A stretch of 64,000 nucleotides of DNA from the NCBI RefSeq assembly GCF_030704535.1, contig NC_081822.1:382001-446000 (forward strand), in the 5' to 3' direction. Source of the DNA: Vitis vinifera (lineage: Eukaryota; Streptophyta; Magnoliopsida; Vitales; Vitaceae). Shown here piece after piece: positions 16,562-62,349 of this stretch (its first letter is position 1; each line of letters begins with the position of its first letter). Both the position numbers and the translations under genes were made by a program. The notes beneath the pieces are model-generated. The model was not told the origin of the DNA. It was given only the letters and a program-made list of their open reading frames with translations, and made no database searches.

Positions 16562-18768
16562 ATGGCCTCCACAAACGCATCTGTTGTCTTCTCCGGAAGG
16601 TCTTACTTCTCTTCTGATGTTCATTTCCAATTTGTTTATAATCTATCAAAAGATTACATTTATTGTGGTAGAATTTAGTGACCCGAATTTTATTTGTTTT
16701 GACTCGAAAAATTCATGGTACAATATATGTGATGAAATTAAAATTATGAAAAGTTTTGGAGGATTTATGGTAATAATGAAGGAACGAGACTGATATATAT
16801 AGTCATGATGATGATTATACTTTTGTTGTAGTTGTTTAGAACTCTTTCTTTTTGTACTAATTTTTTTAATATGATAAGCCTTTTTTTCTTTTGCTTGTGA
16901 TTTTTCTTATTTAAGGTTTTTCATATAAATCTATGTGTTCTTATTTTATTATTTTTATTGTCTATTTTCATTATTTTGTAACATATTGCATGTTTGTTTC
17001 AATTTGATAACCTCTTTTTCCTTCTTCTTTACCCTATGTTGTCTGTATATGCCTGCCTTCATGTGTTGTTTTTCAAGTTTTTGAATTCTTCAAGACTCAT
17101 GGGATAAATGTTCTAATTTGAATAAATGAAATTAATTAATTACATGGGTGCCACAGAATTTATGAGAGAATGTAGTCTTCATTTAATTTCAATAGCAAAC
17201 AATGGTGTATATGATTGAGAAATACTCACTTGAGGTTCAATTCTCTGTGTGTCGTCTGGATCACTCAGCAAAGCAGTCACATCCCATGAAGAAGAACATC
17301 CAGTGAAGGCCTTTGGGTGGGCAGCTAGAGACAACTCTGGCCATCTCTCTCCCTTCAACTTCTCCAGAAGGTAATTTCCTTTCCTTTTCTTTTTCTTTTT
17401 CTTTTTTTTATTGTTTTTTTTTTAAAAAAAAAGAAAAATTGTTATTGGAATATTTCTTTTTGTTTTGATGATCTGATGGTGTTTGTGGTTGAATTATATA
17501 TGTCATAGGTCCACAGGAGAGGAGGACGTGAGACTTAAAGTGCTCTACTGTGGTATATGTCACACTGATCTTCACAACAGCAAGAACGAATGGGGCTCCG
17601 CCAGTTACCCTCTTGTGCCAGGGTACAATTTTTTAATTTACACATAAGTAATGTTAATTAATATCATTTTCAAGTAGCATATGCTATATAGCATTGAAAT
17701 ATATTCATTCCCTCAATTGTGTAGGCACGAGGTCGTAGGAACTGTGACAGAAGTTGGAAGCAAGGTGAAGAAATTCAAAGTTGGAGATAAAGTAGGCGTG
17801 GGGTCCTTGGTTGGAGCATGCCACTCCTGCGACGACTGCTCTCATGACCTCGAGAACTACTGCCCCAAATTGATACTAACGTATGGTTCTCTGTACCATG
17901 ATGGAACCATGACATATGGCGGTTACTCCGACACCATGGTGGCCAATGAGCGCTATGTGATTCGTATCCCCGATAACATGCCGCTTGACAAGGGAGCACC
18001 GCTCCTGTGTGCGGGGATCACAGTCTATAGTCCCTTAAAATATTATGGACTCAATGAACCAGGTATGCACATCGGGATAGTTGGGCTAGGTGGGCTTGGT
18101 CATATCGCTGTCAAATTTGCCAAGGCTTTTGGATGTAAAGTCACGGTAATTAGCACATCCCCTGCAAAGAAGAAAGAAGCCATTGAACATCTTGGTGCAG
18201 ACATGTTTCTGGTCAGCCGTGATGAACAACAAATGCAGGTTGAATATGTTGCTTGGTATTCACATGCTTTCTAATTATACATCAAGTTTTATTTCATAAT
18301 TGATGGGGGTTATGTAGGGTGCAATGGGCACAATGGATGGTATAATTGACACGGTCTCTGCAATTCATCCTCTCCTTCCGTTGATCGACCTTTTGAAGTC
18401 CCAAGGAAAGCTTGTTATGTTGGGGGCACCAGATCAGCCACTTGAGCTTCCCGCCTTTCCTTTAATTTTGGGTAAATATAAATATATGGCAAGAAATTGA
18501 ATTTTTTGTTTTGATTGGGATAATTTAATAAGAAATGACAATGACAATGACAATGACAGGAAGGAAGAGTGTGGGTGGTAGTCTCACCGGAGGATTGAAG
18601 GAGACGCAAGAGATGATTGATTTTGCTGCAAAACACGATATAAAGTCGGATATTGAGGTAATTTCCATGGACTACATCAACACTGCAATGGAGCGTCTTG
18701 CCAAGGGTGATGTCAGATACCGGTTTGTCATCGACATTGGAAATACCCTTGCTGCTTCCAACCCTTAA
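16562..18768 (+). CDS. Cinnamyl alcohol dehydrogenase family protein (CAD/mannitol dehydrogenase-like)
   Basis: Zinc- and NADP(H)-dependent medium-chain alcohol dehydrogenase; this subgroup (often called CAD-like, ELI3 or mannitol dehydrogenase) reduces aromatic aldehydes in the cytosol. Exons: 16562-16599, 17269-17370, 17509-17622, 17725-18238, 18318-18471, 18560-18768, giving 376 residues with all GT-AG borders in frame. Catalytic zinc ligands C64, H86 (with E87) and C180 are present. So are the four structural zinc cysteines C117, C120, C123 and C131, and the nucleotide-binding GLGGLG (205-210). The N-terminus starts [16 protein letters not shown] and reaches the family motif [13 protein letters not shown]. 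The sequence has GVGSLVG where many homologues have GVGCLVG; this Cys is not a zinc ligand in the family. The exact substrate cannot be read from the sequence. Confidence 0.92.
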
Positions 18769-20686: not shown

Positions 20687-21091
20687 TTAATCTTCGTAGA
20701 TTCGACACTCCTCATTCTCCGGATTCTCCTGGCAATACGACTCCAAGGGATCTTCTTTCTCCATCTTCCGCCGGAGATCCGCCTTGGCCTGGCTGACCTC
20801 TTCCACTTCGTCCCAAGCCACCTTACACTCGTCGGAGGTCTCGTCTCCCTCACACACCTGCTTCGCTTCCAGTACCTTCTTCTCGATCAACTCCGTCAGC
20901 TGCTTCTCTCTCATCTGCGTCCCTTTGAACTTCACCACCCCCATCGCTTTCACGCATAAATTCACCTTCTTTGGACTTCGCAGGGGGCGAGATACGTCGC
21001 ACAAGGCACCGGATCTTATCGAGAAGGACGAAGACAGGATGGAGCCCTGTGATCCATGCGATGGCGCGCATAAAGCCACGAAAGATGCCAT
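20687..21091 (-). CDS. CP12-3: Chloroplast protein CP12, CP12-3 type
   Basis: Small, intrinsically disordered plastid regulator. CP12 proteins lock GAPDH and phosphoribulokinase into an inactive complex in the dark under redox control. Single exon, 134 residues, the same length I recall for Arabidopsis CP12-3 (At1g76560). Residues 1-50 (Ser-rich, ending near LCVKAM) look like a transit peptide. The N-terminal redox pair C80/C89 (VCEGDETSDEC), the AWDEVEE motif (92-98) and the C-terminal pair C120/C129 (YCQENPENEEC) with the acidic tail RIYED are all present. Assignment to CP12-3 rather than CP12-1/2 rests on length and on neighbours: LHCB7 and PFP-alpha flank CP12-3 in Arabidopsis. Divergently arranged with BUBR1. 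Confidence 0.92.
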   Translation of the reverse strand: MASFVALCAPSHGSQGSILSSSFSIRSGALCDVSRPLRSPKKVNLCVKAMGVVKFKGTQMREKQLTELIEKKVLEAKQVCEGDETSDECKVAWDEVEEVSQAKADLRRKMEKEDPLESYCQENPENEECRIYED

Positions 21092-22398
21092 CGTGATTCA
21101 AACCCTAGCGAGTTCGATCTCTTTTTCTTCTCTTTAGGCGAGTTCCCTTCTGTTTCTGTCGATATAAAGCGATAATTTTGGTAGGTTAACCAGAGTTGAG
21201 TCCTGCTCCCTTTTTGGTCGTTGTGGCTTGGCTGGCGGAGTTACCAAAATACCCTTGTGCGATATTTTTATTATTTTTTTGACATTCTCAATATTAAAGA
21301 AATCTCCAGAAACATTATCCGAATCCACAAAAACTTAGGTTTGGATAAGGTGAAGACGAAGTAACCGAAGGCCAGATTTCATAACCCTCTGTTTTTTTCT
21401 CGTGTAGTTGTTATCGACGTAACGCAGAGCCCACAGTCAAAGCCTCAATGAGAAACGGAGCTGACAAAGCCCATTACCACCACTTCTTTGTGGTTGTATT
21501 TTTGACAACCATCAGATGTCACTGTCTCACTCTCACAGGTGACAGATGCTTTGGCCTGTTGCCAAACATTTTCAAAATATATTTTGGAAATAACTTTTAA
21601 ATATTTTCAGTAATAAAATTTTGTTTCCCACTCAAATTTGCCTTATTAGTATGCACCTGTACATTTAAAAGTTCTCAATGCATTTCTTATGTTTTTAGGT
21701 AAAAAAAACAGTTTTTTTCGTTTAAAAATAAAACATTTTCAAACAAGCATTTTGACTTTGGTCATTTGACATTTTCTTTCTTAATAATTTCATATTGTAT
21801 TACACCAAGCAGTAGGGACAAAATATGCTACAATAAATTCGTAGCGTGTGGTTTACGAATTTCTTTAATTATAATTTCCAAATGAGATGTAAACCTTTTT
21901 AACCAAGTTTAATTTTTGTTAAAATAAATTTTTTATTTAATTAAAAATTTTGAACCTATTAAAATAAAATTATTTGAAAAACAAATTTAAAATATAATTT
22001 ATCAATTGCATGATAAAAGTAATTATTATGTTACTTCTCTTGCCATAAGTTAAAAAGATTTTGAAAGGGAAAAGAGAAAAAAAGCTTAGATGAATACAAA
22101 ACCTCTTATTTAATTAACCATTAAAAAAAATTAAAGAGACATAAAGTATAGTGAAAATTATTTAATTTTTAAAAAATTTAAAATTTAATTTATTGATTGT
22201 TTTTCTCCACTTTTAATTTCTTCTTCTATTTTCTTTCTTTTATATTTTTTTCTCAAGATCCGTACTGAGCCCAGACCCTGTTAAAAATGTAGAAGCCCAT
22301 CCGCTGTGGCCCATTGTACACCACTATCTGGTTGGTGGCCTAGCCCATTAACCTCCATTACTCTTCGGGGGTACAATGAGAAAGTGGCTTGGTTTTCT
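21092..22398. other. Divergent intergenic region CP12-3 / BUBR1
   Basis: Holds the promoters of both genes. A TATA-like stretch on the minus strand (around 21160-21170) could serve CP12-3. The middle is AT-rich with no gene. Confidence 0.45.
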
Positions 22399-22514: not shown

Positions 22515-25500
22515 ATGGAAGATGTTCAGAGGTTAGACCCGGAGACGGAGTTTCTCTGCTCGAAGCAAGAGACGGGAAACGAATGGGAACTCTTCAAGGA
22601 GAACGTGAGGCCACTGAAGAGAGGCCGAAACATTCATCTCTTGAACAACGCTCTCAAAGCTCAAACGGACAATCAATTGAAGCATTCTCTTCTTGAGAAC
22701 CGAAGGTCCTCATTTTCGTCTTCCTTCTTTCATCTTTCTATTCTGTCTGTTCAGATTCTTGGAATCGATCGTCTATTTTCACTTCTGATTTCTTTCTTTT
22801 TTGGATTGTTAGGAAGTTGATACAGGCTATTGATGAGTACCAAGGAGATGATCCTCTCCAGCCATGGATTCGGTCAGTACATCTCTCTCTATGAATTAAA
22901 TCTTCCCAAATTTTGAATCTAATGTTTTAGGATCCGTTGGCAGGCTTTAGTTTGGTCTGGCCCCAAATAATGAAAAATCAAATTTACTTTCTTCTTGCTG
23001 TACCTTTTCTCTATAACCAAAGGAGCGATTAGGGTATTAGTTTGATTTAGGCTACATAGATTGAGTTCCCCTGTGTCCCATGTAATAGAAACCCAAGACT
23101 CATTCTTATGATTTTTTTATTTATTTCTTATCTTTTCTCCATAATCAAAAAGTGCATTAGGTTTTGATCCAATTTGCTTTCACAATTACACCTAGGTCGC
23201 ATCTGGTTTAGCAGGATTGAATTGAATTTAAACTGGAATTTCAATTCCATGCAATTAAAATTTTAAGCAATCAACATGAGTTCTGCTTCATTGGATTGTT
23301 TTATGTATATTGTGAGATATCTAGTTTGGTATCCTAACTATCACTTTTACCGGCAATGTGAATTTGCATCTGTTATTTTTTCAAGTGAAATATCTATTCT
23401 ACAGAATGAACTTACTAGGCTTCTAACCATCGCAAACAGTGTATTAAAAGAGCCAATTAAAAAAGGGGACGCACACAGCACATAGGGAAAACATTTTTTA
23501 CACTACAACAGCGTAGTTTTGGGTCTTATTGTCACAGTTAGTTGTGCATCTGTGGCATGAGGGTCAGTCCATGTACTAAACAAGTGACCTTTTTCTTCAC
23601 TCCAAAGGTGCATAAAATGGGTTCAGGAGGCCTTCCCTCCTGGTGGAGACTACTCAGGACTTGTTGTTATTTATGAACAATGTGCACGCACTTTTTGGCA
23701 TGAAGACCGCTACAAGGATGATCTTCGCTACCTGAAAGTGTGGCTAGAATATGTGAGTTCTCTTCATCATCAAGGCCTTAATTATTAAACTGTTACCTCC
23801 ACCTATCCTCAAAGTATTGTTTTCATTTCTGTAACTAAACGATGTTTTTTTCTTTTAAATGGAACATCAGGCTGAAAATTGTGTTGATGCGGAAGTCATA
23901 TATAGTTTTCTGGATGCAAATAAAATTGGGCAATCACATTCTTCGTACTATATATCATATGCTCTTCACATGGAGTCCAAAAATAAGGTCAAATGTGCCA
24001 ATGACATATTCAATCTTGGGATAGAAAGGTAATCTATATTATTTTAGTACATCATGTATGATGTGGCTAGTTTTCTGTTATATTCTTTGATTTGGATATG
24101 CATTTGTGTTTCTATACTTAAATAAGGGAAGTTTTTAGGAGAGTAATTATGGGTTTGTAGAAACATTGAAGATGGCTTGCTTGGAAAGTTTAGAGTGTCT
24201 TTCTTTTTTCTGTTTCTTGTGTTTTCTTTGATTTTCCCTTTTTTATTTTTTGGTAGGCTTTACTTTGTTTTCTTGGTTCTATAAATCTCACATAAGGACA
24301 AATCTTGGTTAGTTAAAAAGTGTCTACCTGTTTTAATGAAAGTGGGTTGGTTAGGTATTACGCTAAATATTATAGGACTGCCCCTACCTTCTCGACTGTA
24401 AATTTCTCTAGGACAGATAGTTTCTCTCCTTTCTTTTCTTCTTGGTTATCTAATATGTCATATTATGATGTGGTTGGATTATTTGAATTCCTATATGACA
24501 TATTCAATTAATTATTATTTAAGTCTGATCAAACAGATTGGCAATGCATACATATTCAATCCAACACAATTGCTATCTCATCCTATCTCTTCAGTTTCCA
24601 ATGGTTCAGCCCAAGTGCTGTCAGCCTCTTGTACTATAGATAATTCAGCACATACTAGTTGTTCAACCAATTCTAAGAGTTCTTTGTTTGATTTGTGGCA
24701 TAAAAGGTTAGGTCATCCATTTGAAAAAGTTGTCAAATGTGTACTCTCACATTTTAATATGCCCAATTTTAATAAAATGGAACCTTCTTTCTGTACATCT
24801 TGTTGTATAGGTAAGATTCATAAACTCTCATTCAGTTTGTCTGATAGAGTCTATACTGCTCCTCTTCAACTTATGCATTTTGATCTATGGGGTCTAGCAC
24901 ACATTCAGGCTAGTAATGGATGTAAATATTAATCAAATATTACATCCATTTTATTGATTATTACTCTAGATTACCTAGATTTACTTGCTTAGAAATAAAT
25001 CATATGCTATTCAAACTTTTATCAATTTCAAAACTTAAGTAGAGTTACAATTCAATACCAAACTTGAAGCCATACAAACAGATTGTGGAGAAGAGTTTCA
25101 AAGTCTTTCAAGATTATTTGTCTACTAATGGGATAGTACATAAAGTTTCTTGCCCTCATACACAAACAAAATGAGGTTGTTGATAGAAAACATAGGCGCA
25201 TATAGTGGAAAATGGGCTCTCTCTCTCTCAGCAAATTATTTTCTTCCTTTGAAATATTGGGATGAGGCTTTTAAAGCGACTTTGTACCTATAAATAGACT
25301 TCCAACTTCTATTCTTAATATTAAATCCCCTTTAGAACCTTATTCAAGATTAAACCTGCCTATAACACTCATAGAGTCTTTGGATGTGCTTGTAACCCTA
25401 ACCTTAGAACCTATAATAAACATAAGTTGCAATTTAGGAGTGCTCAATGCATATTTATGGGCTACAATTTAAATCACAAGGGTTGTAAGTGTTTAGACCC

Positions 25501-28500
25501 TAATGGTAGGATGTTTATTTCAAGAGATGTCATATTTGATGAATTCTCTTTTCCTTTTTCAAAAATAAAAAAGTCACCGGTTGTCCTTTCAGTCCCTCAG
25601 ATAAGTTTAAGGCCCTTAGCCACACCACCTGTATTTCCTCATATTTCTCAGCTCCTTTTAGGTTTTGCATCATCTAATTCTCAAGATAATCCTTTTCGAA
25701 CATCTATTTCTACACTAGTATCATCTACACAACATGAAGATAAGCATTTATGTGACATGGATACTTCTAATGCTATTGCTAATGTTGATCCTACTCATAC
25801 ACTTGAGACTAATGTTTCTGTGCAACCTAGTTTGAGCAATAATATTGTAGGATTAGTTTTTGTTGCTATAGAAGCAAGGAGCTTAGGAAACACTCATGTA
25901 ATGATAACAAGAGCCAAGAATGGTAGATACAAGCCTAAGATTTATCTAGCAGAGTTAACAAAGCCTTCTAGTGTGCTTGTTGCTTTGCAGCAACCAGAGT
26001 AGAAAAAGGCAATCTTAGAAGAATATAGGGCTCTTCAGAAGAATGGAACATGGTCATTGGTTTCATTACCACTTGGGAGGAAAGCAATAGGATGTAAATG
26101 GGTTTTCAAAGTCAAAGAAAAAACATATGACAATATACTTAAATACAAGGCTTGATTAGTGGCTAAGGGGTTTTTTGTGTTTAGAAACATTGAAGATGGC
26201 TTGCTTGGAGAGTTTAGAGTGTCTTTCTTTTTTCTGTTTCTTATGTTTTCTTTTATTTTCCTTCTTTTTTATTTTTTTATTTTTTTATAGGCTTTACTTT
26301 GCTTTCTTGGTTCTATAAATCTCATATAAGGACAAATCTTGGTTAGTTAAAAAGTGTCTACCTGTTTTAATGAAAGTGGGTTGGTTAGGTATTATGCTAA
26401 ATATTATAGGACTGCCCCTACCTTCTCGACTATAAATTTCTCAAGGACAGGTAGTTTCTCTCCTTTCTTTTCTTCTTGGTTATCTAATATGTCATATTAT
26501 GATGTGGTTGGATTATTTGAATTCCTATATGACATATTCAATTAATTATTATTTAAGTCTGACCAAACAGATTGGCAATGCATACAAATGACCCTAGATA
26601 GGGCTGAGTGGCAGGAAAGGATTCACATTGATGTGTCCAGTAATGGGGATGAGAGGCTTTGTGGATTTTTGTATTATTATAATTTGGTAAAAAGGGCTAA
26701 CAACTTAAGTTCATGTTTATCGATGTGGAAGGAAAAACTCAACATTCCACCATACATTATAATGATTACATTCCGCTTTACATATAGATGATAATACTCA
26801 TCTATTTTAGGGATATTTACAACTTATCAAAAAAAAATCAAAACTACCTAAAACATAAATGGATTTGGTAACAGATTACCAAATCCCTAAAATCATGGGA
26901 TAAGAAAAGATGATTTGTTAGCTGTAGATATCCTCAATCTTAGCCCTTAACATTGCTGACAAATCATCAAATTAAATCTTCCTATAATTTTACACTCCCC
27001 CTCAAGCTGGGCGGTAAATATTTATTAACCCCAGCTTGGAACTCAGATCATCAAACACCTTTCTCGGTAGAGCCTTGGTAAGAATGTCAGCTGTTTGAAG
27101 GCTTGTAGGCACGTACAACATCTTGATTATTCCTTCCTCTATCTTCTCCTTTATGAAATGTCGATCAATTTCCACATGTTTTGTTCTATCATGATGTACT
27201 GGATTTTTTGCAATGCTGATTGTTGACTGATTATCACAGAACATTTTCATAGGTTCTTCATCTGAAATCTTTAATTCCTTTAACACCCTTCTTAACCATA
27301 TTCCCTCACAAATGTCGTGTGCCATTGCCCGGAATTCAGTTTCTGCACTGCTCCTTGACACCACTGATTGCTTCTTACTTCTCCATGTGACCAGATTACC
27401 CCACACATATGTGCAGTACCCTGAAGTTGATCTTCGGTCTTGTACCGATCCCACCCAATCTGCATCGCTGAACACTTCAATATCTCTTCTTTGGTTCTTC
27501 TCAAAAAATAATCCTTTACCTGGTGTTAGTTTCAGGTATCTGAAGATTCTATACACAGCCTCCATGTGTTCTTCATTTGGATTATTCATGAATTGACTTA
27601 CCATGCTGACAGAAAAACCAATATCTGGTCGTGTGTGAGATAGGTATATTAGTTTACCTACTAATCTTTGGTATCTCCCTTTATCCACGGGTGCACAATT
27701 TTCCTTAGCTCCTAGTTTGGTTGTTGGATCCATAGGAGTATCTGCTGGCTTACACCCAAGCATTCCAGTCTCTTTTAAGAGATCCAGGACATATTTTCTT
27801 TGTGAGACAGAGATTCCCTTTCTTGACCTTGCAATCTCCATACCTAGGAAGTATTTGAGATTCCCAAGGTCCTTGATCTCAAATTCTGCAGCTAGAAAAC
27901 TTTTGATGGTGCGGATTTCCTCTTCATAATCTCCCGTTAGAATTATGTCATCCACATATACAATGAGGACAACAAGCTTTCCTGCAGGAGAGTGTTTAAC
28001 AAATAGAGTATGGTCCATCTGACATTGGGAGTAGCCACGTTTCTTAACTACCTTTGTGAATCTTTCAAACCAGGCTCTTGGAGATTGCTTGAGCCCATAT
28101 AGAGATCTCAGAAGTTTACAAACTTTGTTGCGTGTAGTTTGTGTCTCAAATCCTGGAGGAATTTCCATGTAAACTTCTTCATCTAGGTCCCCATTTAGGA
28201 ATGCATTCTTGACATCTAGTTGGTGGAGAGGCCAGTCAAGGTTTGCAACCAAAGATAGTAGAACCCGAACTGTGTTTAACTTGGCTACAGGGGCAAATGT
28301 CTCCTCGTAGTCGATTCTGTATGATTGGGTGAATCCCTTTGCAACCAGCCGTGCCTTGAATCGATTAACACTCCCATCTTCATTATATTTGACTGTGAAG
28401 ATCCATTTGCAGCCCATTGGGCGTTTTCCAGCTGGTAATTCTGAGATTTCCCAGGTTCCATTTTTTTCAAGTGCATGAATTTCTTCATACACAGCTGATT

Positions 28501-31500
28501 TCCACTCAGGTGAGCCGAGAGCTTCTTGTATATTATTAGGAACCTGGATGTTGTCGAGGTTGGCAACAAATGTTTTGAACTTTGGTGATAGTCCTTCATA
28601 TGACACAAATGTGTATATAGGGTGTTTTGTGCATGATCTTACACCTTTTCTCACAGCAATAGGAAAGTCACTATCATCATTAGTTTCGGGATTATAGTTA
28701 CCTGATGGATCTTCACTTGGTCTAGAACTTGAGTCAGACTCTTGGGTTGGCTCAAGAGATGCTTGTTGTTCCATCTCCTTTTGGTTCTGTCTCCTTCTTG
28801 AGTAGGTAATCAACTCATCATTCTTTGTTGATTGAATAGTGTCCAGATTTTGAGGAGGTGGATTAGTAGACGGATTGTTGGTTTGATCTTGAGAAGGAGA
28901 TTCTAGGAAGTAAGGAGACTCAAGGAAGAGATTTTGAGGAGGAATGGATTCATGATTTAGTGATGGGTAGGGTTGGTCAGAATTAGGAGAGAAATGAGAT
29001 GATTCTTCAATATCCCAAAGCTGGTATTCCTGGATAAAGTTAGTCTCCCCCTGAATATCAGATTTGGAGAAATAAGATTGTTGCTCAAAGAAAGTGACAT
29101 CCATGGAGTGATAGAACTGTTTAGTGACCAGTGAGTTAAGAGCTCTAGGATCAAGTTTGTCCCTGTGTTGTTGATGGACATGGACAAAAGCTGAGCACCC
29201 GAAAACTTTGAATGGGATTATTGAGATTAGACGAGTATTGGGAAAGGACTAAAGAAGAATTTGACAAGGAGTCTGGAAGTCGAGAATACGAGATGGCATC
29301 CTATTTATGAGATAGGCAACAGTGAGGATGGCTTCACCCCAGAAATATTTTGGTACATGGGTAGAGAACATTAGGGAACGAGCAACATCAAGAAGATGTC
29401 GGTTTTTTCTTTCGGCAATACCATTTTGTTGACGAGTGTTGACACAGGAACTTTGGTGAACTATACCATGACTCAAGAGATAATCATTAAGAATGGAGTT
29501 GAAATACTCTTTGGCATTGTCAGTTTTCAGAATTTGGATTTTTGCTTGGAATTGTGTTTGGATCATGGTGTTGAAGGTTTTGAAAATCTGGTTTGCCTCT
29601 GATTTTTCTTTCATGAGTAAATGAAATGAACCAGCGAGAACCAGTAACATTTTTTATCCTAGAAGGACCCCATACATCATTATGAATCATGGAAAAAGGT
29701 TGAGATGCTTTGTAGGATCGGTTAGGATAAGAATTACGAATATGTTTAGAAAATTGACAGATCTCACATTGAAACTCATTTGGATTTTTATTATGGAATA
29801 ATGAAGGAAACAACTTCTCAAGATACAAGAAATTTGGATGACCTAACCTATAGTGCCACAACATAACTGCACTATCATTATTAGACTGACTCACAGACAA
29901 AGAAATAGGACTACTGGACACTGAACAATCAGAATGATGAGTTGATCCTTGAGGAGGATCATTAACCTCTAGAAGATAGAGCCCCGAACACATCTTAGCA
30001 CTGCCAATCGTCTTCCCCGAGTCCAAGACCTGAAATTCACACAGATTTGAGCCAAACTTAGTAACACAGTTGAGATCCCGAGTGAGTTTACTAATGGACA
30101 GTAAATTGCAATTTAATTTTGGCACAAGGAGAACTGAATCAAGGGTGATGTTCTTTGAAACTCTAACAGAACCTGTACCAGCCACCTTTGAGAGTGAACC
30201 ATCAGCTATTCTCATAGTTAAATTTTTATAGCATGGATTGTAAGTAGAAAAAAGCTTCTCATCTCCAGTCATATGATCAGATGCTCCCGAGTCTATAATC
30301 CTTGGACTTAACTTCTCCTTTTTAACATTTAGAGCACTAAAAAAATTACCTTTTTGTGCCAAGGAACCAGTACCAACCACAGTGGGGACAACTGCAGGCA
30401 AGGATTGGCTGAACAATTTCTGTAGGACTTCTATCTGTTCCTTGCTGAAGGGAGTGGGTTCGGGTGATGGTTTTTCATCCATGGAGACGAGGTTGCCCCG
30501 TCCTTCTTTGTCATTGGCAAACCGGGAAGGCTTCCAATCTGCAGGTTTGCTGTGAATCTTCCAGCAGGTGTCCTTGGTGTGACCAGGACGTCGGCAATGA
30601 TCACACCATGGTTGCCCTTTCTTCAGTTTGTGATCATTGTTGTTAAATGGATTTCCTCTAACTGCAAGGGCTGAGCTCTCAGGATTTGTCACAGAATCTT
30701 GAGAGCCCATCATGATCTTCTTTCGACTTTCCTCTCTCCGAACTTCTGAAAATGCTTCTCGGATATTTAGTAGTGGTTTGGATCCTAAGATTCTTCCTCG
30801 TACTTCATCAAGATTCTTATTTAATCCAATCAGAAATTTGTATATTCTTTTCCGTTCAATAATTTGTTTATACCTGATTCCATCACCCGGACAGCTCCAA
30901 TTGTGCTCCTCGAACAGGTCCAGCTGCTGCCAGTAGCGATTGAGTGTGTTGAAATACTGAGTCACCGTTAACTCTCCTTGGCGGAAGTCATGGAGAACAC
31001 GCTCCACCTCGAACAATTCCAATGTATTCTCATTGTTGGAATACGTTTCCTTGGCAGCGTCCCAAATCTCCTTTGTTTTCCATAGAGAAGAAAATTTTCT
31101 CCAATGTCATTTGTCATGGAATTAATGAGCCATGACATGACCATATTATATTTTCAGCATTCCAGACTTTGAACTTTTCATCTGTCTTGTTTGGTTTGGC
31201 AGCAACTCCATTGAGATAATCGTCTTTGCCCTTTCTGCATATGAACATCATTACGGAATGGGACCATTGGAGATAGTTGTTCCCATTCAGTTTGTGTCCT
31301 GTAATGGGCATGAGGTTACTATCTGCACTACTATTGCTGGAAGCCATGGCTTCCTGATTGGAGGTGATTTGGGAAACAGTAGCAATTGAATTATGTTTGC
31401 CGTATTTGGTCATATGAGGGAATTAGGGTTCAGAGAATGCTCTGATACCATATCGATGTGGAAGGAAAAACTCAACATTCCACCATACATTATAATGATT

Positions 31501-34015: not shown

Positions 34016-35583
34016 TCAGCCAAAAAATCAGTGGCCAGGGTTAGGAAGCCTTCAACCTTTGCCCACACAAGCAGGGAAATGGCCTCTTTCTAGATCAGAT
34101 TTACATTCATGTTCCTCATGTTGTTTTATCTTTATAATGGGTTAGCTTTTATCTTTAAAGCTTGAAGAAGTTGAATTTTTCCTGTTGCATGTTATTTTCT
34201 CAAACATTGACCATCGAACAACTGTCCGGGGTAACGAGTTTGTGCCTATGTTCATGTTGTTGTGCCATTTATATGGTGTTTTGATATTTCTAGGTAATTC
34301 TGATCCAACCCCATCACCACTGTTTGAGTGAAATTAGTACCAGAGCTTCTCTCATCTCCCATTTTGTTTAAGGCTATGTTGGGTTGAAGGAATTTTTGAG
34401 GGAAAATGTAAGGGGGAAGAAATAGGGCGGAGAAATGGAAGAAAAGAAAATTTGAAAATGGACAAGTGTTTTACTATTTTTTAATATTCCTCTTAATACA
34501 ATTAAACATCAAAAAATTATTTTCCATATTTTATAAGAACCAAAGAACCAAAAATCATTTTCTTCTGTATTTATTTATAGGAACCAAACATGTTTCTTGC
34601 TTTATTTAAAAGGGTCCATATTCCAAAACACAATTAAGAGAATGACACCTTATTTGGTTATTACTCAAACAAAAATTATCAAGGCATGTTTTTTCATTCA
34701 TAATTTTATTTGACAAATCTCATTTGTAAATAGATTATTTTCTAAATATGACAATGAAGTGGAATTGGAAAGTGATGATGCAAATCAAAATCAAAACTCA
34801 ACTACAAACGGTTTTTTTGCGGCATTTGATCAATAATCCATGCAACAGTTTTGAGACCAAATTGCAAAAGAATTCTTTTAAGTATTTAATTAACTTGACA
34901 TTTTAAGTTTTTTATGGTTGTAAAAAATGTAATATTTAGATATTAAGTTTTTAATAATCCATTATTTTTCATATTATATAAAAAATAAATATATTAATTA
35001 TTTTTTTAAGGATGATAATGATAAATTATTTATTATAACAATTTTATTATTTTGGACTTTTTAGAAATACATTATATCATATTATTTTTCTTAATACAAG
35101 ATATTGGTTTTTAATATATAAAAAAATAAACAGCTTAATATTTAATAAAAATAAAATATTAAGCCCAGTTTACTGTTTACAACCAATGAGCAGTCGGTGA
35201 AAGTTAAAAGGCATTCAAATGGATAAATAATAAAAGGCCCATTAAGGGCGGATAGCATTATTCACTTGGGTTTGGATCCGAGGATTTTATACTTTATAGT
35301 GGACGCCAGTGAAGTTCCAACCGTTGGTGTTTGGTTCTGGTTATTTGGTTGGGTCAGGTCGTACGACACTAGAACCTTCCATTAACAGTAGGTTCCGCAT
35401 CCCCCAAAACTAGGGTTTATTGATTCCAACCATCTCTTCATTTTCTTTGTGATTTTTGTTTGTTTGTTTCCAATGCTATGGAATCAATTGCATATTGATA
35501 TCAATTCCAATTCGTGTTTCCCTATCCAGGCAAAAGAAAAATAAAAATAAAAAACCCTAACGAGCTTGATCCAGGGGGCGTCA
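34016..35583. other. Spacer and U2AF35 promoter/leader
   Basis: BUBR1 3' untranslated sequence, then AT-rich DNA. A pyrimidine-rich stretch ending CCTATCCAG at about 35530 followed by the leader may be the acceptor of a 5' UTR intron for U2AF35; the matching donor was not fixed. Confidence 0.4.
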
Positions 35584-36402
35584 ATGGCGGAGCACTTGGC
35601 TTCCATCTTCGGCACCGAAAAGGACCGCGTGAACTGTCCGTTTTATTTCAAGATCGGTGCTTGTCGTCACGGAGATCGATGCTCGCGCCTCCACAATCGC
35701 CCCACGATCTCCCCAACGCTTCTCCTCTCCAACATGTATCAGCGTCCCGACATGATTACTCCAGGTGTAGACGCTCAAGGCCAGCCTATTGATCCCAGGA
35801 AGATTCAGGAACACTTTGAGGACTTCTACGAGGATATCTTTGAAGAGCTCGGCAAGTTCGGCGAGATCGAGAGTCTCAATGTTTGTGATAACCTGGCCGA
35901 TCACATGATCGGTAATGTTTATGTTCAGTTCAAGGAGGAGGAGCAGGCGGCCGCTGCTTTGCAAGCTTTGCAGGGGCGGTTCTACTCCGGCCGCCCTATC
36001 ATTGCGGATTTTTCTCCCGTTACCGACTTTCGTGAAGCAACGTGTCGCCAATTTGAGGAGAACAATTGCAACCGAGGGGGTTACTGTAACTTTATGCATG
36101 TGAAGCTTATTGGAAGGGATTTGAGGAGGAAGCTATTTGGGAGGTACAGCGGATATGGGAGAAGTCGAAGCCGGAGCAGGAGTTTGAGTCCACGTTACCG
36201 GAGGGATTCTGATAGGCGAAGGAGCGGGGACCGTGGAGATTACCGAGGAAATGGGCGACGGAGCGGGGATAAGCACGGGAGTGATGGGGGTCGAAGAAGA
36301 CATGGCAGTCCCAGGCGGAGCAGGAGTCCGGTGAGAGAAGGGAGTGAGGAGCGCAGAGCGAGGATTGAGCTGTGGAATCGAGAAAGAGAGGAAAGGCAGT
36401 GA
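35584..36402 (+). CDS. U2AF35: Splicing factor U2AF small subunit
   Basis: Recognises the AG of the 3' splice site and partners the large U2AF subunit in the nucleus. Intronless frame of 272 residues, within the plant family range (roughly 280-300). First CCCH zinc finger C18-x8-C27-x5-C33-x3-H37; U2AF-homology RRM about 43-147 (MITPG...[20 protein letters not shown]...[11 protein letters not shown]); second CCCH finger C154-x7-C162-x5-C168-x3-H172; then a C-terminal Arg/Ser-rich tail from about 190 ([15 protein letters not shown]) ending [15 protein letters not shown]. The start chosen ([18 protein letters not shown]) is the conserved family start; an in-frame upstream Met at 35566 is less likely. 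The lack of coding introns agrees with other plant U2AF35 genes. Confidence 0.95.
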
Positions 36403-41339: not shown

Positions 41340-42560
41340 TATAACTCTAATAAGGAGCATTTAGAGTTCTTGAAGTGGGCTTTCATGTAGTTTGGAGCGA
41401 TTTTGATTTAAAAATCAATTTGGATAAAAGTAAGTTGATCCCATTGGGGAAGGTTTCTAATTTTGAGGATTTGCTTCGGGTGTTGGATTGTAAAGTGGGT
41501 TTTCTCCTTTCCTCTTATTTAAGTTTACCATTATGAGCATCTTTTAAATTTTTATGAGTTTGGGATATAGTGAAAAAAAGGTTTAAGAAATAACTTGTAT
41601 AATGGAAGAGACAATATTGATAAAAAAAGAAAGAGAGATTGACTTTGGCAAAGAGCATTCATTTTAGCTTACTAATCTACTACATGTCTTTATTTGCCAT
41701 TCTCCGTGTAGTGAGTTTAAAATTGGAGAAGATTTAAATGGATTTTCTTCTAGGGGAGGATAGTTCTAAATAAGTCATAGATGATGAACTAGTTAATAGT
41801 TTACATTGATAAAAAAGATGAGAGTTTGGGTATTAGAAATTTATCTACTCTAAATGAGGTCCTTTTTGGAAAATGATCTTGTAAATTTGCATTTGAGAAC
41901 AAGTCTTTTTGGAAACAATTGACTATAAGAATGTATGGAAGGAAGATAAAGGGTTGATGTTTTGAAGTTTCGAAGAAGGTTATGGGGTAAGTCTTTGGAA
42001 TGTTATTAGGAACGAGTAGAGAGAGTTTAACAAAAAAAGGTTGAATTCAAGGTAAGAAATGGTAGAAGGGTGAGATTTTAGAATGAGGTGGTGTGGTGAG
42101 GATTGCCTAGAGGAGGATTTCCTAAATTTGTTCGCTAAAGATGTTGGGTAGACCAAATATGAGAGTAGTTAGGAAAAGTGAGTTGTTGGAATATAGTATT
42201 CACAAAACAAAATAATGATTGGGAAATGAGAGAAGTGAAAGTCCTTTTTCAAGCGATTGTAAGGACAAGAAATTAGAAAGGATATCAAAGATGTCATGAT
42301 TTGGTGGCGTCAAAGGGTGACTTCTTTACAATTAAATCAATTTGCAGAATGAAGCTATTCCCTTTAGCCATTGTGAACCCTTGGGTCCTAAGGAGGGATA
42401 GTTTTTTTTTTTTGAAGCTTTGCGAGAAAGAATTCTAACTCTAAATCAACTAAAAAGAAGGGGTTGATGTTTACTGAATAGGTGTTATTTGTATAAAGAA
42501 TACGAGGAACTAACAAATCATATCCTCCTTCATTGACTCAAAGTAGCCATACTTTGGTAA
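41340..42560 (+). pseudogene. Degenerate LINE reverse transcriptase relic
   Basis: Plus-strand reading in several frames resembles the later half of a plant LINE ORF2: LKINLDKSKLIPLGK-like and VLDCKVGF-like motifs near 41400-41500, a GLGIRNLSTLN-like motif near 41830, and an ILTLNQLKRRG-like motif near 42440. Many stops and indels. Non-functional. Confidence 0.65.
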
Positions 42561-43645
42561 CTTATTTTTATTCTGTTATGTGAAATCAATATTTGGTTAA
42601 TTTCGATTTTTATGATAACAAAACAATGTTTAGAATTAATAATCATATTTCAAATGTGATTAGACAATAAGATTTTCAAAGTGGCAATTACAACGATAAA
42701 ATTAAGCCAAAAAGAAATCAATAAAAAGAAGAAGACATTAAAGAAAAGTGTTTTTCAAGACCTAAGTTTTATAAGATTTATTTATAATGTTGTGGGTGCT
42801 TAGGTTTTTCATACATTACATTTTTACTTATACACTAAAATCATGCAAGAATTATTTTGTTTTAAATATTTTAAAAGGTAAAGAAGAGTGGATGTAAACC
42901 GGATTGTATTGAACCATTATAAAAATCTTGTGTTTGTATTCCTTTTTTTACTTTATATGTAATTATTTTTTATATTATTTTATTATATATTTGTATACAA
43001 TTGTCTCTTACATTCATATAACTTAGAGACCATCACCTTATTCACCATTCCTTTAGGCTAGTTACCTTAGGTTTTTCTAACATATTTGATGTATAATGGA
43101 TGATACCACTTTTAGTCAATAATGCCTTTCTTAGTTTACACGATGCTTTTTATCGGGAAGAAAAAGAAAAAGATATGGATAGTAATTCCTTTAGAGAGAG
43201 CCTTTGACGATTTTGAAATGGTGGATCAAATAATTATACAATTTTTATGCACATATTCTAGAATTGGACCATGATACATTTAGATTTTAACTCGTTTTTA
43301 TTTGACTTATTATTTCACTGGGTTGGAAGTGAGACGATGATGTTTTTTTTTTTTTTTTTTTTTGCATATACCTTTTCTTTTTCGGCATTTCTTTTTAGTT
43401 GACAAAAAAAAAAAAAAAATTGTCGTTTTTGCTTAACTAGATTTTTTTCTTTTTAAGGATTAAAGTCTCAAATGCATGAAAAATCTTATTACAAGAAACA
43501 GAGAATTTGAATCAAACAAATTATAAATTTTTTTTTAATATCCTAACTTTCGAATAATTTAACAAATAAATTTTTTATTCTTCTTACTATTTTTATCCTA
43601 ACTCCATCAATAATAAATAACAAATCAAATATAAATTGTCACTGA
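42561..43645. other. AT-rich spacer before bZIP60
   Basis: T- and A-runs at 43340-43365 and 43405-43420; no coding signal seen. Confidence 0.5.
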
Positions 43646-43915
43646 TCACAATGCCACGTGGGCTAAGGGGGACAGTAATAAGCGTTTCTATTGGACCGAT
43701 GATGCAGTCCGCTCCCACGATTGCCTGTGGCCTGGAGTTTTTTATTTTTCCTGAACCACTCTTCCATATGTGTCCACGTGGCCAATGATAAAAATCAATT
43801 GCCTTGTAGCAAAAGGACCCATGAACGCACACCAATGTTATGATGTATGCGCAGTATGCAATCTTTGCGCTGTTTCCTTGTCACCGAAGAAAACGCGTCT
43901 GGGTCACCTATAAAT
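43646..43915 (+). promoter_or_regulatory. bZIP60 promoter with ACGT motifs, ER-stress-like elements and TATA box
   Basis: CCACGTGG palindrome at 43654-43661; CGATGA at 43697-43702, which is TCATCG (plant UPRE-III core) on the other strand; CCACGTGGCCAAT at 43774-43786, whose complement ATTGGCCACGTGG resembles ER-stress element II (ATTGG-N-CCACG) but lacks the spacer base. The TATA box TATAAAT is at 43909-43915 and the ATG at 44024. Such elements would allow feedback from bZIP factors during ER stress; this is inference. Confidence 0.5.
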
Positions 43916-44023
43916 CATAGCCTCCAAATATGACAATTTTAAAAACGCTCTGTAAATATATTTTTCCTTCGAGGTGCTTCTCTGTATTTAGGGTTTAACA
44001 TTTGAGGAATTGTTCCTCTAGTC

Positions 44024-46691
44024 ATGGACGATTTGGAAATTGGGGAGGATGGAATCATCGATTGGGAACAAATGTTCAGTGAATTACCGGAGGATTTGGA
44101 AGTCTTAATCGGTGATCCTCCCCTCGTTTCCGATTCACCTCCCGATGTTTTATCGGATTCTTCTCCAGATTCGGTTTCTTCCTGGATCGGTGAGATCGAG
44201 AATTTGTTGATGAGAGACGACAACGACGAGGTCGTTGTTGAGCATAATCAGGATTTTGGCGAGGATTTCTTGGCAGGTTTTGTTCTTGATCATCCTGCAG
44301 ATGCCTATGCCGATGCCCATGCTGACGCTTCCAGCGATAAGGATTCTACTGTTCTTGATTCTGCTGGCGAAGCTGATGCATCCACTGACAAAAATTCGAA
44401 TGTTTGCGGCGATGGTAGTCCCGAGCAGGAAAAGATCAACGGCTATAACGGAAACGCCCAGAACGACGGGGAGGATGAAGATCAGGCCTCTAAGAAACGA
44501 AGAAGGTACCTGTAATTTAGGATTTTCTTTAGCCGGTAACGTACCTAAATTTTAGGGTTTTCTAGGTATTTAGGGTTTTTATCTATCTTCATGCATAAAA
44601 GTCAGATCGAGGTTAAGTTTTAATGTACAAACTTTGCGTTGTGGATTTTCTTCAGGTTGCGTGGTTCAATTCTGAATTAAATTGATAGGAAAATATTAAT
44701 TAGAATTATTATTATGTTTTATGCTAAATAATTAGATTGATAGTCCTTTAACCATATGGGACAAGAAATCTACGGGGAAAGCTACTTGTATGCCTCCTGT
44801 GTGTTCCAAGTACAAGGATGTAATATGAATTTTGATTTTCAGGCAGTTGAGAAATCGGGATGCTGCAGTGAGATCAAGGGAGAGGAAAAAGACGTATGTG
44901 AGAGATTTGGAGTTGAAGAGTAGGTATCTTGAATCGGAATGCAGAAGGCTGGGGCATTTGCTCCAGTGCTGTTTTGCAGAGAATCAAACTCTACGTCTTC
45001 ACTTGCAGAATGAGAAGGCCTTTGGTGCTTCAGTGACCAAGCAGGAGTCTGCTGTGCTCTTGATGGGTACGAAACGTCATATTTCTATCAATCATTTTTC
45101 TGTTCTCAGCCTAGTTTTCATTTGGAGACTCGTAGTTTTAATACGTCCCCTTTTGAGCTTACCCTTTGTTTGATGCAAATTTAAGGCAACTTGTGACAAT
45201 ATGGATAAAATGTTGAAAGAATTGTTTAACCCATTATTTGGATTTTGAAAAAAATATGGGAAAGATGATAAGGATAGAATGTAAAAGGAAAAAGAAAGTG
45301 AAGTAAAATAAAGAAAAATAGATTTAAAGTTAATAAATTATTTTTATATGATATTTTTAGAAATCCCTTTCACTTATTTTTTTTCCTCATCTAGGGATTA
45401 TAAGATATTAATTAAAATTATATTTGATGTTTTAAAAAAAAAATCATGCTAAACCAAATATGATAAAAATATTTTTCTTAAACTTTTTTTTTCTTTTTTT
45501 GCTTCATTATCACATTCTTGGAACCGATAAATTTAAGTAGCTTTAAGATTTTAAGGATAGAGTGATTCAAAACAAGTTCCACACAAAAGCTTTGGATTGT
45601 ATACATACATACAATTTTGATATAGGTTGGACAGGAAATTGCTTTGGGTATGATATTTAGGAGAAATAAGCAAAGAGGGAAATAGTAGATAATATCCCTT
45701 AACGGGAGTGGGTATGATTTTTACATTATTGACTTGAGAAATAAGCAAAGAGGAAAATAGCCCTTAGAGGTGAAACAGAATTATTTTGGGGTTAATTTTA
45801 CTCATCTCTCCCTGGGATTTGGCTAAGTAGACTGACTTTTATCGTTTTGAGTGAGAGGAGAGGTGAGTGAAGATAACAAATGAAGGAAGGTGAGTGAAAA
45901 TAACAAATGAAAATGAGAGAGGAGCTGTTTGATGTAATTTCAAACCAAAGGAGTTTAGGTGTATTTAACCAAAACCTAATGGGAGGTGAATGAAATTAAC
46001 CCAATTACTGTGACATTAAACATGAATCTGGTTCTTTATATATGGATCCCGTACCCCTCTTTTACGAGCTACTATGGCTTGCCATGAGATGTGGAAAATT
46101 ATTTTTGTTTGACCAGACAAGTGAAGGTAAGTTTTGCTTTGAGCTTTTCTGGTTGCTACATTAGAAGAGCCTGCTTGGAGGCTCTGCCCATCAAGTTTCA
46201 ACATAAATCATTTTCTGCTTAAGATACTTAATAACATTAATATGCACCTTCATGGGGAAGGATTTAAAAAAGGGCCTTTAGACTGCATATAACTGAATAA
46301 TTCTTTCTGTTTTGATCACTGTGATATTTTTGCCCTCTGTTGAATGATGGGGTTATTAAGAATGAAAGTCTTCTTCTTCCTTCTTGTGTTTGGAACTTTT
46401 GAGAACATTTGAGTTTGGTGCTTTGCAGAATCCCTGCTGTTGGGTTCCCTGCTTTGGTTCCTGGGCATCATGTGTCTAGCTCTGTCTCTTCCCGTACAGT
46501 TCCAGTTAAGTCGGGAAGCCGTTCCGATGGGAAGCGTGGAAGACAAAGGCCAGAAAAGTGTGGCTCCAAGAGGGCCAGGAAGTAAAATTTTTGAATTATG
46601 GTTGTTACAGTCTTATGTCAAGAGTAAGAGATGCAAAGCTTCAAAAACAAAGATGAAACCAGGTTCTCTTGCTCATGGAGTTTTGGTGTGA
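44024..46691 (+). CDS. bZIP60: bZIP60-type ER-stress transcription factor, membrane-anchored (unspliced) form
   Basis: Unfolded-protein-response regulator, equivalent to Arabidopsis bZIP60. Exons 44024-44505, 44843-45066 and 46429-46691 give 322 residues. The acidic N-terminus (activation region) is followed by KKRRR and a basic region with the bZIP signature N165-x7-R173 (NRDAAVRSRERKK), then a leucine zipper to about 215. Exon 3 begins ESLLLGSLLWFLGIMCLALS, a single membrane span (about 238-258) that would hold the protein in the ER. The C-terminal region after it is short. As in Arabidopsis bZIP60, exon 3 also contains the IRE1 target region: loss of 23 nt yields a 279-residue soluble form with a basic tail ending at 46583-46585. 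The family start MDDLEIGEDGIIDWE fixes the initiator. Confidence 0.92.
46429..46472 (+). promoter_or_regulatory. Candidate IRE1 unconventional splice region in bZIP60 mRNA
   Basis: GAATCC, with its first G from exon 2, and GGGTTC (46442-46447) can pair to present a loop with CTGCTG (46434-46439), matching the CNGNNG consensus of IRE1 cleavage loops. A second candidate site lies about 23 nt on, near CCTGGGC (46460-46466), but it does not match the consensus as well. Removing 23 nt (for example 46440-46462) shifts the frame, deletes the membrane span and opens a basic frame to 46585. The exact cut positions were not determined. Confidence 0.75.
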
Positions 46692-59222: not shown

Positions 59223-60207
59223 TCCTCAGTAGAGCCACGAGGGTTGAAGAAGGCAAAGATTTTGGTTTCAATCTCTTCAACCCAAGCATCATGAATTGGT
59301 TTAATGACAAATCGGTGTACCAAAATCTTTAGCAATGTTATTTTGTATGAAGCAACCTATAGGTATTTTTGGACATACTTCCTACCCTGTAAAGTATCGT
59401 TTTCCCAAAGATCATTTTTTTTTAATATTGCATAATTACGTTCATGGCAAAAGTTCATCACCTATCGACCATATTTTCCATTTTTTTAATATTTTATTAA
59501 AAAGAGTTATTTGATTAAAAGAATCATTTTTTATTTTATCATATTTTGATAAAAATATCATTTTTTTTTTTACAAAATATTTTATTTTCAAGTTTACGTT
59601 GTAAATACTTGAAATAGTTAAGAACATTTATTTCAAAAATAAGTTGTTCATGAGGATTATTTCATTATTTTAATCAATTAATTTTATTAAAAATGTCTAA
59701 AAATATATCAAATTTATTCTTAAAAACATTTTTTCATAAATAAAAAAGTTGGGAAGCTATAAATTTCTTTTTTAACGCAAGTGGAAACGTGGTTAACAAG
59801 GGTACGGATGCTCAACGAATCAAATCATAACTTTGAATATCCCATTCTCACAGCCGTCGGTTTTATGATCTGTACGAGGCGTCTGCGGGAGCAGGATTCT
59901 AAACTGCACCTCGAAGCACTGATTCACCAACTCAGAGATCAACTCCCACTCCTCTCGAGTCTCACCACCCCCAACCCCCAAATTCGCTGCTTTCATCTAA
60001 TCACTGATCAGTAATCAGTGTGAGCAAAAACCCTAGAATTAAACCCAACTTTCTTTCTTTATTTTTCTCTCACTGCGTGGTTTTGATCCTCTGCCGCTGG
60101 CCTACCTACCCAGATTGACTACACGCTCTCGATTTCTGGTCAGTCTCTCTCTTTATCTTCATCGAGTTCAAATGCAGTAAGCCCACTTAATCGAATCGCA
60201 ATCCACC
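59223..60207. other. Spacer and FRS promoter/leader
   Basis: AT-rich until 59770, then more balanced sequence of the FRS 5' region with CT-rich stretches. No TATA box could be fixed. Confidence 0.45.
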
Positions 60208-62349
60208 ATGGATTTCGAGCCTCTGAACATTGAAAATGAGGTGATGGAATTCGCCATGGGCTCTGGGGAAGAAGACAACGGTCTCGACTTAGAACACAAT
60301 GATGAGTATGAAGGTTATAACGGCGAAATGATGGAGAATTCTTCTGCCGCTGGTCGGGATTCACTGGCTTTGAATGGGGACCCGAATCTCGAACCCTCGG
60401 AAGGAATGGAATTCGATTCTGAACAGGCAGCTCGAATTTTCTACAATTCATATGCGCGTCGCATCGGTTTCAGTACCCGAGTCAGCGTGTACCAACGGTC
60501 CCGTCGGGACGGCTCAATCATTTGCCGCCAAATTGTGTGCTCCCGTGAAGGGTTTCGCCGGGAGGGCGGTGAAAATCGGTCCAAGCGGCAGCGGACCGTG
60601 ACTAGGGTTGGTTGTAAGGCGCAAATGACTGTGAAGAAACAGAATTCTGGGAAATGGGCTGTGACCAAACTCGTAAAAGAACATAATCATGACCTTGTGC
60701 CTCCTGATAAAGTGCATTGCCTCCGCTCGCATAGGCATGTATCGGGGCCTGCCAGAAGTCTGATTGATACTCTTCAGGCGGCTGGAATGGGCCCAAGCGG
60801 GGTGATGTCCGTGTTAATTAAGGAGTCCGGTGGGATTAATAATGTTGGTTTTACAAAAGTTGATTGCCAGAATTATATGAGTAGTAGCAGGCAGAGGACC
60901 CTTGGGAGTGGGGGTCAGCATATTTTCGACTATTTGAAGCGAATGCAGGGGGAGGATCCTGGGTTCTTTTGTGCCGTGCAAGGTGATTCTGAAAACCCAA
61001 CTGGAAATATTTTTTGGGCTGATGCCAATTCTAGGGTGAATTACCAATACTTTGGGGACACTGTTACGTTTGATACAGCTTATAGAACCAACCGTTATCG
61101 GGTTCCCTTTGCCCCATTCACTGGGTGGAACCATCATGGGCAGCCTGTATTGTTTGGCTGTGCATTGCTACTTAATGAGTCAGAGTCTTCTTTCGTTTGG
61201 CTGTTTCAGACTTGGCTTGCTGCAATGTCTGATCACCATCCCCTTTCGATCACAACTGATCAGGATAGGATTATTCGAGCAGCTGTTGCACAGGTTTTCC
61301 CTGGAACCCGACACCGTTTTTGTAAGTGGAATGTATTTAGAGAAGCCCAGGAGAAATTGTTCCATGTAAATCAATCACACCTCACTTTTGAAGCAGAGTT
61401 TCAGAGGTGCATAAACTTGACAGAGACAATAGATGAGTTTGAGTCAAGTTGGGAGTCTCTACTTGAGAAATACAATCTCCTGGATAATGAATGGCTTCAA
61501 TCGATGTACAATGCCCGCCAGCAGTGGGTGCCAGTTTATCTTCGTGATACATTCTTTGGGGAGATGTCAATAACCCAAGGCACTGATAGTATAAACTCAT
61601 TCTTTGATGGTTATATAAATGCATCAACTAGCATTCAGGTGCTGCTTAAGCAGTATGAGAAAGCTACTGCCAGTCGGTATGAAAAAGAAGTAAAGGCAGA
61701 CTATGATACAATTAACACTGCACCAGTTCTAAAAACTCCATCTCCTATGGAAAAACAAGCAGCAAACCTTTATACCAGAAAGATATTCACGCAATTTCAG
61801 GAGGAATTAGTAGAGACTCTTGCTAATCCGGCAACTGTAATTGATGATGGGGGATCAGAGGCTTTGTATCGGGTTGCAAAATTTGGGGAAGACCACAAAG
61901 CACACTTCATTAAATTCAATGTTTTTGAAAGGAAAGCTAGCTGTAGCTGCCAAATGTTTGAGTTTTCTGGTATTATCTGTAGGCACATATTGGCAGTTTT
62001 TAGAGTAACAAATGTTCTTACACTGCCATCTCATTACATCTTGAAGCGCTGGACAAGAAATGCGAAAAGTGGGGTTATATTGGATGAGCACACTCTTGGA
62101 TTACCAGGCAGTTCTCAAGAGTCTTTAACTGCTCGCTATGAAAATCTTCGTCGGGAAGCTATCAAATATGTAGAAGAAGGGGCAGCATCAACACATATTT
62201 ATAATGTGGCGATGGATGCTCTACATGAAGCAGCAAAGAAAGTTTATGCTGCAAAGAAACAGGGTGCTGGGGTCACACCAAGTACTTCGGTTAAAGAATG
62301 CCAGCTTCAATCTAGTTCTGTGGTTAGTTCTTTACTTCTCTTCACATAA
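60208..62349 (+). CDS. FAR1-related sequence (FRS) transcription factor
   Basis: Nuclear transcription factor derived from a Mutator-like transposase; the family includes FHY3 and FAR1, regulators of light signalling. Open frame of 713 residues from MDFEPLNIENEVMEF. FAR1 DNA-binding zinc region about 66-165 (GMEFDSEQAARIFYNSYARR, C106, C111, C136, H159, H161). MULE transposase-like core about 270-400 (DTVTFDTAYRTNRYRVPFAP...HHGQPVLFGCALL...ITTDQDRIIRAAV...HRFCKWNV). SWIM zinc finger about 577-595 (CSCQMFEFSGIICRHI). Closest in style to the FRS5 type, but I do not fix the orthologue. A GT immediately after codon 705 (62323, TCTGTG|GTTAGT) is a plausible intron donor, so the true C-terminus may lie in another exon and the last eight codons may be read-through. 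Confidence 0.9.
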   Translation: MDFEPLNIENEVMEFAMGSGEEDNGLDLEHNDEYEGYNGEMMENSSAAGRDSLALNGDPNLEPSEGMEFDSEQAARIFYNSYARRIGFSTRVSVYQRSRRDGSIICRQIVCSREGFRREGGENRSKRQRTVTRVGCKAQMTVKKQNSGKWAVTKLVKEHNHDLVPPDKVHCLRSHRHVSGPARSLIDTLQAAGMGPSGVMSVLIKESGGINNVGFTKVDCQNYMSSSRQRTLGSGGQHIFDYLKRMQGEDPGFFCAVQGDSENPTGNIFWADANSRVNYQYFGDTVTFDTAYRTNRYRVPFAPFTGWNHHGQPVLFGCALLLNESESSFVWLFQTWLAAMSDHHPLSITTDQDRIIRAAVAQVFPGTRHRFCKWNVFREAQEKLFHVNQSHLTFEAEFQRCINLTETIDEFESSWESLLEKYNLLDNEWLQSMYNARQQWVPVYLRDTFFGEMSITQGTDSINSFFDGYINASTSIQVLLKQYEKATASRYEKEVKADYDTINTAPVLKTPSPMEKQAANLYTRKIFTQFQEELVETLANPATVIDDGGSEALYRVAKFGEDHKAHFIKFNVFERKASCSCQMFEFSGIICRHILAVFRVTNVLTLPSHYILKRWTRNAKSGVILDEHTLGLPGSSQESLTARYENLRREAIKYVEEGAASTHIYNVAMDALHEAAKKVYAAKKQGAGVTPSTSVKECQLQSSSVVSSLLLFT

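Follow-up and report, generated by a model that had tools for sequence, protein, structure and literature searches.

A predicted IRE1 switch in grapevine bZIP60 with its 23-nt intron divided between two exons

The window analysed here, a stretch of 64,000 nt from Vitis vinifera, contains a predicted gene (44024-46691, plus strand) that, judged from sequence, is almost certainly a plant bZIP60 with the canonical IRE1 switch and with the IRE1 substrate divided between exons 2 and 3. The IRE1 intron is predicted to comprise 23 nt, of which 15 nt belong to exon 2 (45052-45066) and 8 nt to exon 3 (46429-46436). Because these 23 nt are shared between two exons, the switch would be present only after normal splicing. 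The predicted gene structure, the loops and their 23-nt spacing, both reading frames, the nucleotide conservation with Arabidopsis and the IRE1-type genes of the genome are read from the sequence by computation. The mechanism itself is already known, and the interruption of the IRE1 intron is a modest and at most unremarked detail, since genome annotations would display the exon structure; among the best-ranked matches in the open-access full texts searched (e.g. the best 15 of 458), no mention of a spliceosomal interruption of the bZIP60 IRE1 intron was found.

The gene model is conceptual, with start, splice sites and stop all predicted from sequence, and consists of three exons separated by two GT-AG introns of 337 and 1,362 nt (Table 1). 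The coding part of exon 1 encodes an acidic N-terminus as far as the start of the basic region. A bZIP domain is present in the conceptual protein (Pfam bZIP_2, E 7.2e-7; bZIP_1, E 1.4e-6; both above cut-off), and a bZIP_Maf match lies slightly below its Pfam cut-off. The identification as bZIP60, made in a preliminary description of this DNA, holds. Against solved structures, the bZIP region gave just two weak matches (TGA7 and TGA3, E about 0.001), which are uninformative on the switch. A genome search (495.6 Mb, 21 contigs) with a 106-aa query returned both exons of bZIP60 and one weaker bZIP-region match on contig C8, so bZIP60 looks single-copy at the sensitivity of this query. Exact-pattern scans for homologues of the bZIP60 site in viral and genome contig collections without plants yielded 0 stretches, as expected for a plant gene.

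Table 1. Predicted features of the bZIP60 gene and of its IRE1 site (window coordinates)
Feature	Position	Strand	Basis or sequence
bZIP60 exon 1, coding part	44024..44505	+	ORF and conceptual splicing
Spliceosomal intron 1 (predicted), 337 nt, GT-AG, phase 2	44506..44842	+	AAG/GTACCT ... TTTTCAG/GC
Exon 2: bulk of bZIP domain and 5' IRE1 hairpin	44843..45066	+	Pfam on conceptual protein
5' IRE1 hairpin CAGGAGT[CTGCTGT]GCTCTTG, 7-nt loop 45049-45055, predicted cut 45051/45052	45042..45062	+	7-bp stem, pattern scan
IRE1 intron (predicted), exon-2 part, first 15 nt of 23	45052..45066	+	Loop spacing; match to Arabidopsis spliced-form primer
Spliceosomal intron 2 (predicted), 1,362 nt, GT-AG, phase 1	45067..46428	+	TGG/GTACGA ... 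GCTTTGCAG/AA
Exon 3, conventional frame, ends 322-aa unspliced form; stop 46689-46691	46429..46691	+	Conceptual splicing
IRE1 intron (predicted), exon-3 part, last 8 nt of 23	46429..46436	+	Loop spacing; match to Arabidopsis spliced-form primer
3' IRE1 hairpin, exon-3 part AATCC[CTGCTGTT]GGGTTCC, 8-nt loop 46434-46441, predicted cut 46436/46437	46429..46448	+	Scan and fold
Membrane span, unspliced form, LLLGSLLWFLGIMCLALSL	46434..46490	+	Kyte-Doolittle 2.34 over 19 residues
Alternative frame after predicted IRE1 splicing, GFPALVPGHHVSSSVSSRTVPVKSGSRSDGKRGRQRPEKCGSKRARK, ends 279-aa spliced form; stop 46583-46585	46437..46585	+	Conceptual splicing

Exon 3 carries two protein ends. The conventional frame, read from the predicted exon start at 46429, encodes SLLLGSLLWFLGIMCLALSL and stops at 46689-46691; past the zipper it contains a single hydrophobic segment, residues 238-256 of the 322-aa form, called as a membrane span with hydropathy as the sole criterion (best 19-residue Kyte-Doolittle value 2.34, versus only 0.72 in the spliced form). 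A 23-nt frameshift leads to an open, Lys/Arg-rich tail in another frame, which ends in SDGKRGRQRPEKCGSKRARK. The preliminary description had already recognised this dual coding, placed the alternative stop correctly at 46583-46585 and noted the Lys/Arg content of the second frame, and these points are borne out. Its openness and basic composition exceed chance: among 5,000 synonymous-codon shuffles of the CDS, the alternative frame stayed open for at least 49 residues in 168, and in four it also held at least 12 Lys+Arg. With so few shuffles matching in length and in basic content, the second frame is probably more than a side effect of the first.

The open frame alone is unable to locate the cuts, because every placement tried yields the same far tail (10 placements of a 23-nt removal, and likewise 10 of 20 nt and 10 of 26 nt). 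CTGCTG occurs at 44361, 45049 and 46434 in the mature coding mRNA, and the last two stand 23 nt apart once spliced. The 5' CTGCTGT loop lies in exon 2, and the 3' loop starts at 46434 in exon 3; the preliminary description had taken the CTGCTG at 46434 as the first loop and the event as one contained in the last exon, two assignments that have to be revised. Since CTGCTGT is repeated, eight placements of the 23-nt deletion give an identical product. HAC1 and XBP1 are described as cleaved after the third loop base, G, in two 7-nt loops (PMC4891664), and this rule therefore selects, among the eight, cuts between 45051 and 45052 (CUG^CUGU) and between 46436 and 46437 (CUG^CUGUU). Both predicted sites match CxGxxGx; the poor consensus fit previously noted for the second site appeared because the cut pair had been misplaced.

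The reverse primer printed for spliced Arabidopsis bZIP60 in PMC9302528 (one base shorter in PMC3373542) agrees with these cuts. Its reverse complement is found at 24/24 nt in the product lacking 45052-45066 + 46429-46436 and is absent from the unspliced mRNA, from the plus strand of the window and from the product lacking 46437-46459. The intron as printed in PMC9302528 is shifted by five bases in the 3' direction relative to the position expected from the loops and conflicts with that paper's own spliced-form primer; the primer and the loop rule are followed here.

The segment 46437-46459 is the 23 nt that the preliminary description had proposed for removal, and an excision by IRE1 entirely inside exon 3 can now be given almost no weight. 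Although it would leave the far tail and the stop unchanged and would have a CUG^CUG site as its first cut, its second cut (GUU^CCU) has no preceding CxG, its product lacks the published Arabidopsis spliced junction, and local genomic folds of exon 3 show no twin hairpins at the cuts. Moreover, six CNGNNG site pairs occur near the junction, and the two that yield the basic-tail frame (23 and 26 nt) both begin in exon 2. In the 26-nt pair, the 3' cut uses a second CNGNNG motif that overlaps the first, and falls between 46439 and 46440. CTGTTGG at 46437 matches CxGxxGx too, and frame and tail would be unchanged; the G before that cut, however, does not occupy the third loop position in the predicted 3' hairpin, and the loss reported for dicot orthologues is 23 nt, which makes a 26-nt removal exceedingly improbable. 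Primers or genome scans built on 46437-46459 would miss the event, and any scan of unspliced genomic sequence cannot recognise the complete IRE1 site, whose two parts come together only through splicing.

The 23-nt intron divided between exons 2 and 3 is associated with two hairpins in the predicted mature mRNA. The 3' stem begins in exon 2 (its first two bases, GG, are 45065-45066), and its seven pairs have probabilities of 0.64-0.99. Of the six pairs evaluated in the 5' stem (45043-45048/45056-45061), the three core pairs reach 0.95-0.96 and the loop-closing pair 0.71; the outermost two are at 0.08 and 0.14. The minimum-energy fold adds a C-G pair within the 5' loop, where the first C is unpaired with a probability of 0.35 and the sixth-base G with 0.55. 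In the full-length conceptual mRNA, the local minimum-energy fold at the site is unchanged. In local pre-mRNA folds (with 30, 60 and 100 nt each side), no 5' pair exceeds 0.20 and none of the five remaining 3' pairs exceeds 0.29. A 77-nt Arabidopsis fragment served as positive control; it starts at the 5' stem, without the upstream flank, and its minimum-energy fold has the 3' hairpin and not the 5' one.

Fold energy just moderately beats that of shuffled sequences (64 nt, z -1.72, 28/500 as good; 120 nt, z -2.23, 18/500). Twin hairpins had been expected in a fold of exon 3 at 46420-46475, and the nearby genomic stretch 46410-46485 folds like its shuffles (z -0.55, 56/200 as good). Twin hairpins with CNGNNGN loops and a spacing of up to 40 appeared in 32/2,000 dinucleotide and 6/5,000 synonymous shuffles, and those at exactly 23 nt in 3/2,000 and 1/5,000, respectively.

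Comparison with Arabidopsis thaliana bZIP60 (AT1G42990) suggests that the nucleotide sequence of the site is itself conserved. In an ungapped comparison with this one species, made on the 77-nt mRNA fragment overlapped from printed primers and with a 54-nt limit set post hoc, 52/54 nt of the predicted mature mRNA are identical across the site and 10/23 thereafter. At the codon level, 16/17 are identical in the site, third positions included, and 1/8 just after it. This contrast between the site and the sequence beyond it points to constraint on the RNA. The match also extends across the join of exons 2 and 3, which follows column 24, and so supports this predicted junction. The two genes are alike in the 23-nt IRE1 intron, the spliced junction, the 8-nt second loop (PMC4398384 likewise gives 8 nt for the second bZIP60 loop) and the loss of the membrane span through a frameshift; in Arabidopsis, the 23-nt loss is sequence-confirmed (PMC4398384). 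They differ in gene structure: the 23 bp of Arabidopsis lie inside the second exon according to the Figure 4 legend of PMC4398384, whereas here they are split 15 + 8 by a predicted intron of 1,362 nt.

The same design is described for other plants. A 23-b IRE1 intron is the stated expectation for dicots, and the bZIP60 genes of tomato and Boea hygrometrica and soybean bZIP68 (prediction and RT-PCR) share the 23-nt removal, the twin loops and the loss of the membrane span. For Boea and tomato, the 23-nt loss was confirmed by sequencing according to the authors, and for soybean a CUG^CUG cut is predicted in each loop (PMC4606518). Monocot genes (maize ZmbZIP60, rice bZIP74/50, wheat TabZIP74) are reported with the twin loops, the frameshift and the loss of the membrane span, but the maize intron has 20 nt and the bridge between the loops is shorter in monocots. 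Metazoan XBP1 and yeast HAC1 are likewise cut by IRE1 after the position-3 G of two 7-nt loops; their introns, in contrast, measure 26 and 252 nt, and splicing equips their products with an activation domain rather than removing a membrane span (PMC4398384).

It might be argued that a split site prevents IRE1 splicing altogether and that this bZIP60 is a membrane-bound factor freed otherwise, e.g. by proteolysis, given that the Arabidopsis gene, as described, has no intron at this place (PMC4398384). This is very improbable, since the loops, their spacing, the stems and the tail frame are intact and the codons are conserved across the site; in addition, the mature mRNA should be the same kind of substrate whatever introns it once contained.

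A working IRE1 switch on the mature mRNA would operate as it does in the orthologues, from which cleavage, ligation, stress dependence and nuclear entry of the bZIP60 product are inferred. Nuclear splicing would first take out introns 1 and 2, and the joined exons 2 and 3 would then form two adjacent hairpins with CUGCUGU loops. In unstressed cells, translation of this mRNA would yield the 322-aa form, anchored in the ER membrane. During ER stress, IRE1 would cleave both loops after the third base (CUG^CUG), 23 nt would be lost and an RNA ligase would seal the ends; the shifted frame would then give a 279-aa protein that lacks the membrane span, has the basic tail and would be able to enter the nucleus. 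The mechanism named in the preliminary description (IRE1, 23 nt, a frameshift, a membrane span swapped for a basic tail) is thus supported as a prediction from the sequence. IRE1 itself is represented in the genome by three matches to PF06479 (KEN domain) above the Pfam cut-off, at two places, on contigs C18 and C7; the C18 match lies close to the kinase catalytic motif HRDLKPQN. This IRE1-type gene (about 694 kb) and bZIP60 (about 427 kb) share contig C18 at a distance of ~267 kb, probably by chance.

Intron 2 might act as a licensing device, so that IRE1 acts only on nuclear-spliced mRNA, because the 3' stem borrows two bases from exon 2 and the hairpins fold poorly in local pre-mRNA. The exon junction complex is normally deposited about 20-24 nt upstream of a junction; here it would thus occupy 45043-45047, in the 5' arm of the 5' hairpin, and the substrate might consequently fold only once the first round of translation has cleared the complex. 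This is a speculative and rather unlikely proposal. If it were true, species with an undivided site, e.g. Arabidopsis, would lack the check. The split site and that of Arabidopsis form a natural comparison, bearing on the question of whether IRE1 targeting is influenced by exon junction deposition or by intron retention.

Two further features of intron 2 can be described. Its retention (45067-45173) would give the protein another hydrophobic tail, GTKRHISINHFSVLSLVFIWRLVVLIRPLLSLPFV, so that the retained form might also be membrane-bound. Within the intron, a 214-bp stretch (45789-46002) has 44-nt inverted repeats at its ends that are 75% complementary and resembles a small terminal-inverted-repeat element. 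Upstream of the gene, at 43774-43786 (CCACGTGGCCAAT), the other strand has ATTGG directly abutting CCACG, which we take to resemble the ER-stress element ERSE-II minus the single-base spacer; neither ERSE nor ERSE-II occurs in exact form in 42000-44023.

Elsewhere in the window, an Rfam scan gave 0 matches above gathering score and ARAGORN (bacterial code) 0 tRNA genes. The pattern scan for CNGNNG hairpin pairs found none on the minus strand and, in the genomic sequence of the plus strand, one pair with 4-bp stems (loops at ~60559 and ~60589), which is treated as chance. It falls within an open frame of 722 aa (60181-62346) with FAR1, MULE and SWIM domains, a transposase-derived FAR1-type gene. 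A plus-strand frame at 35551-36399 combines an RRM with two stretches of CCCH zinc finger, as the splicing factor U2AF35 does. Retroelement pieces, which we take to be of copia type, lie at 25325-31106 (RVT_2, Pol_BBD and gag_pre-integrs on the minus strand, SH3_retrovirus in a plus-strand piece). The window also contains a minus-strand CP12-domain frame (20690-21097) and a partial zinc alcohol dehydrogenase gene on the plus strand (17678-18271).
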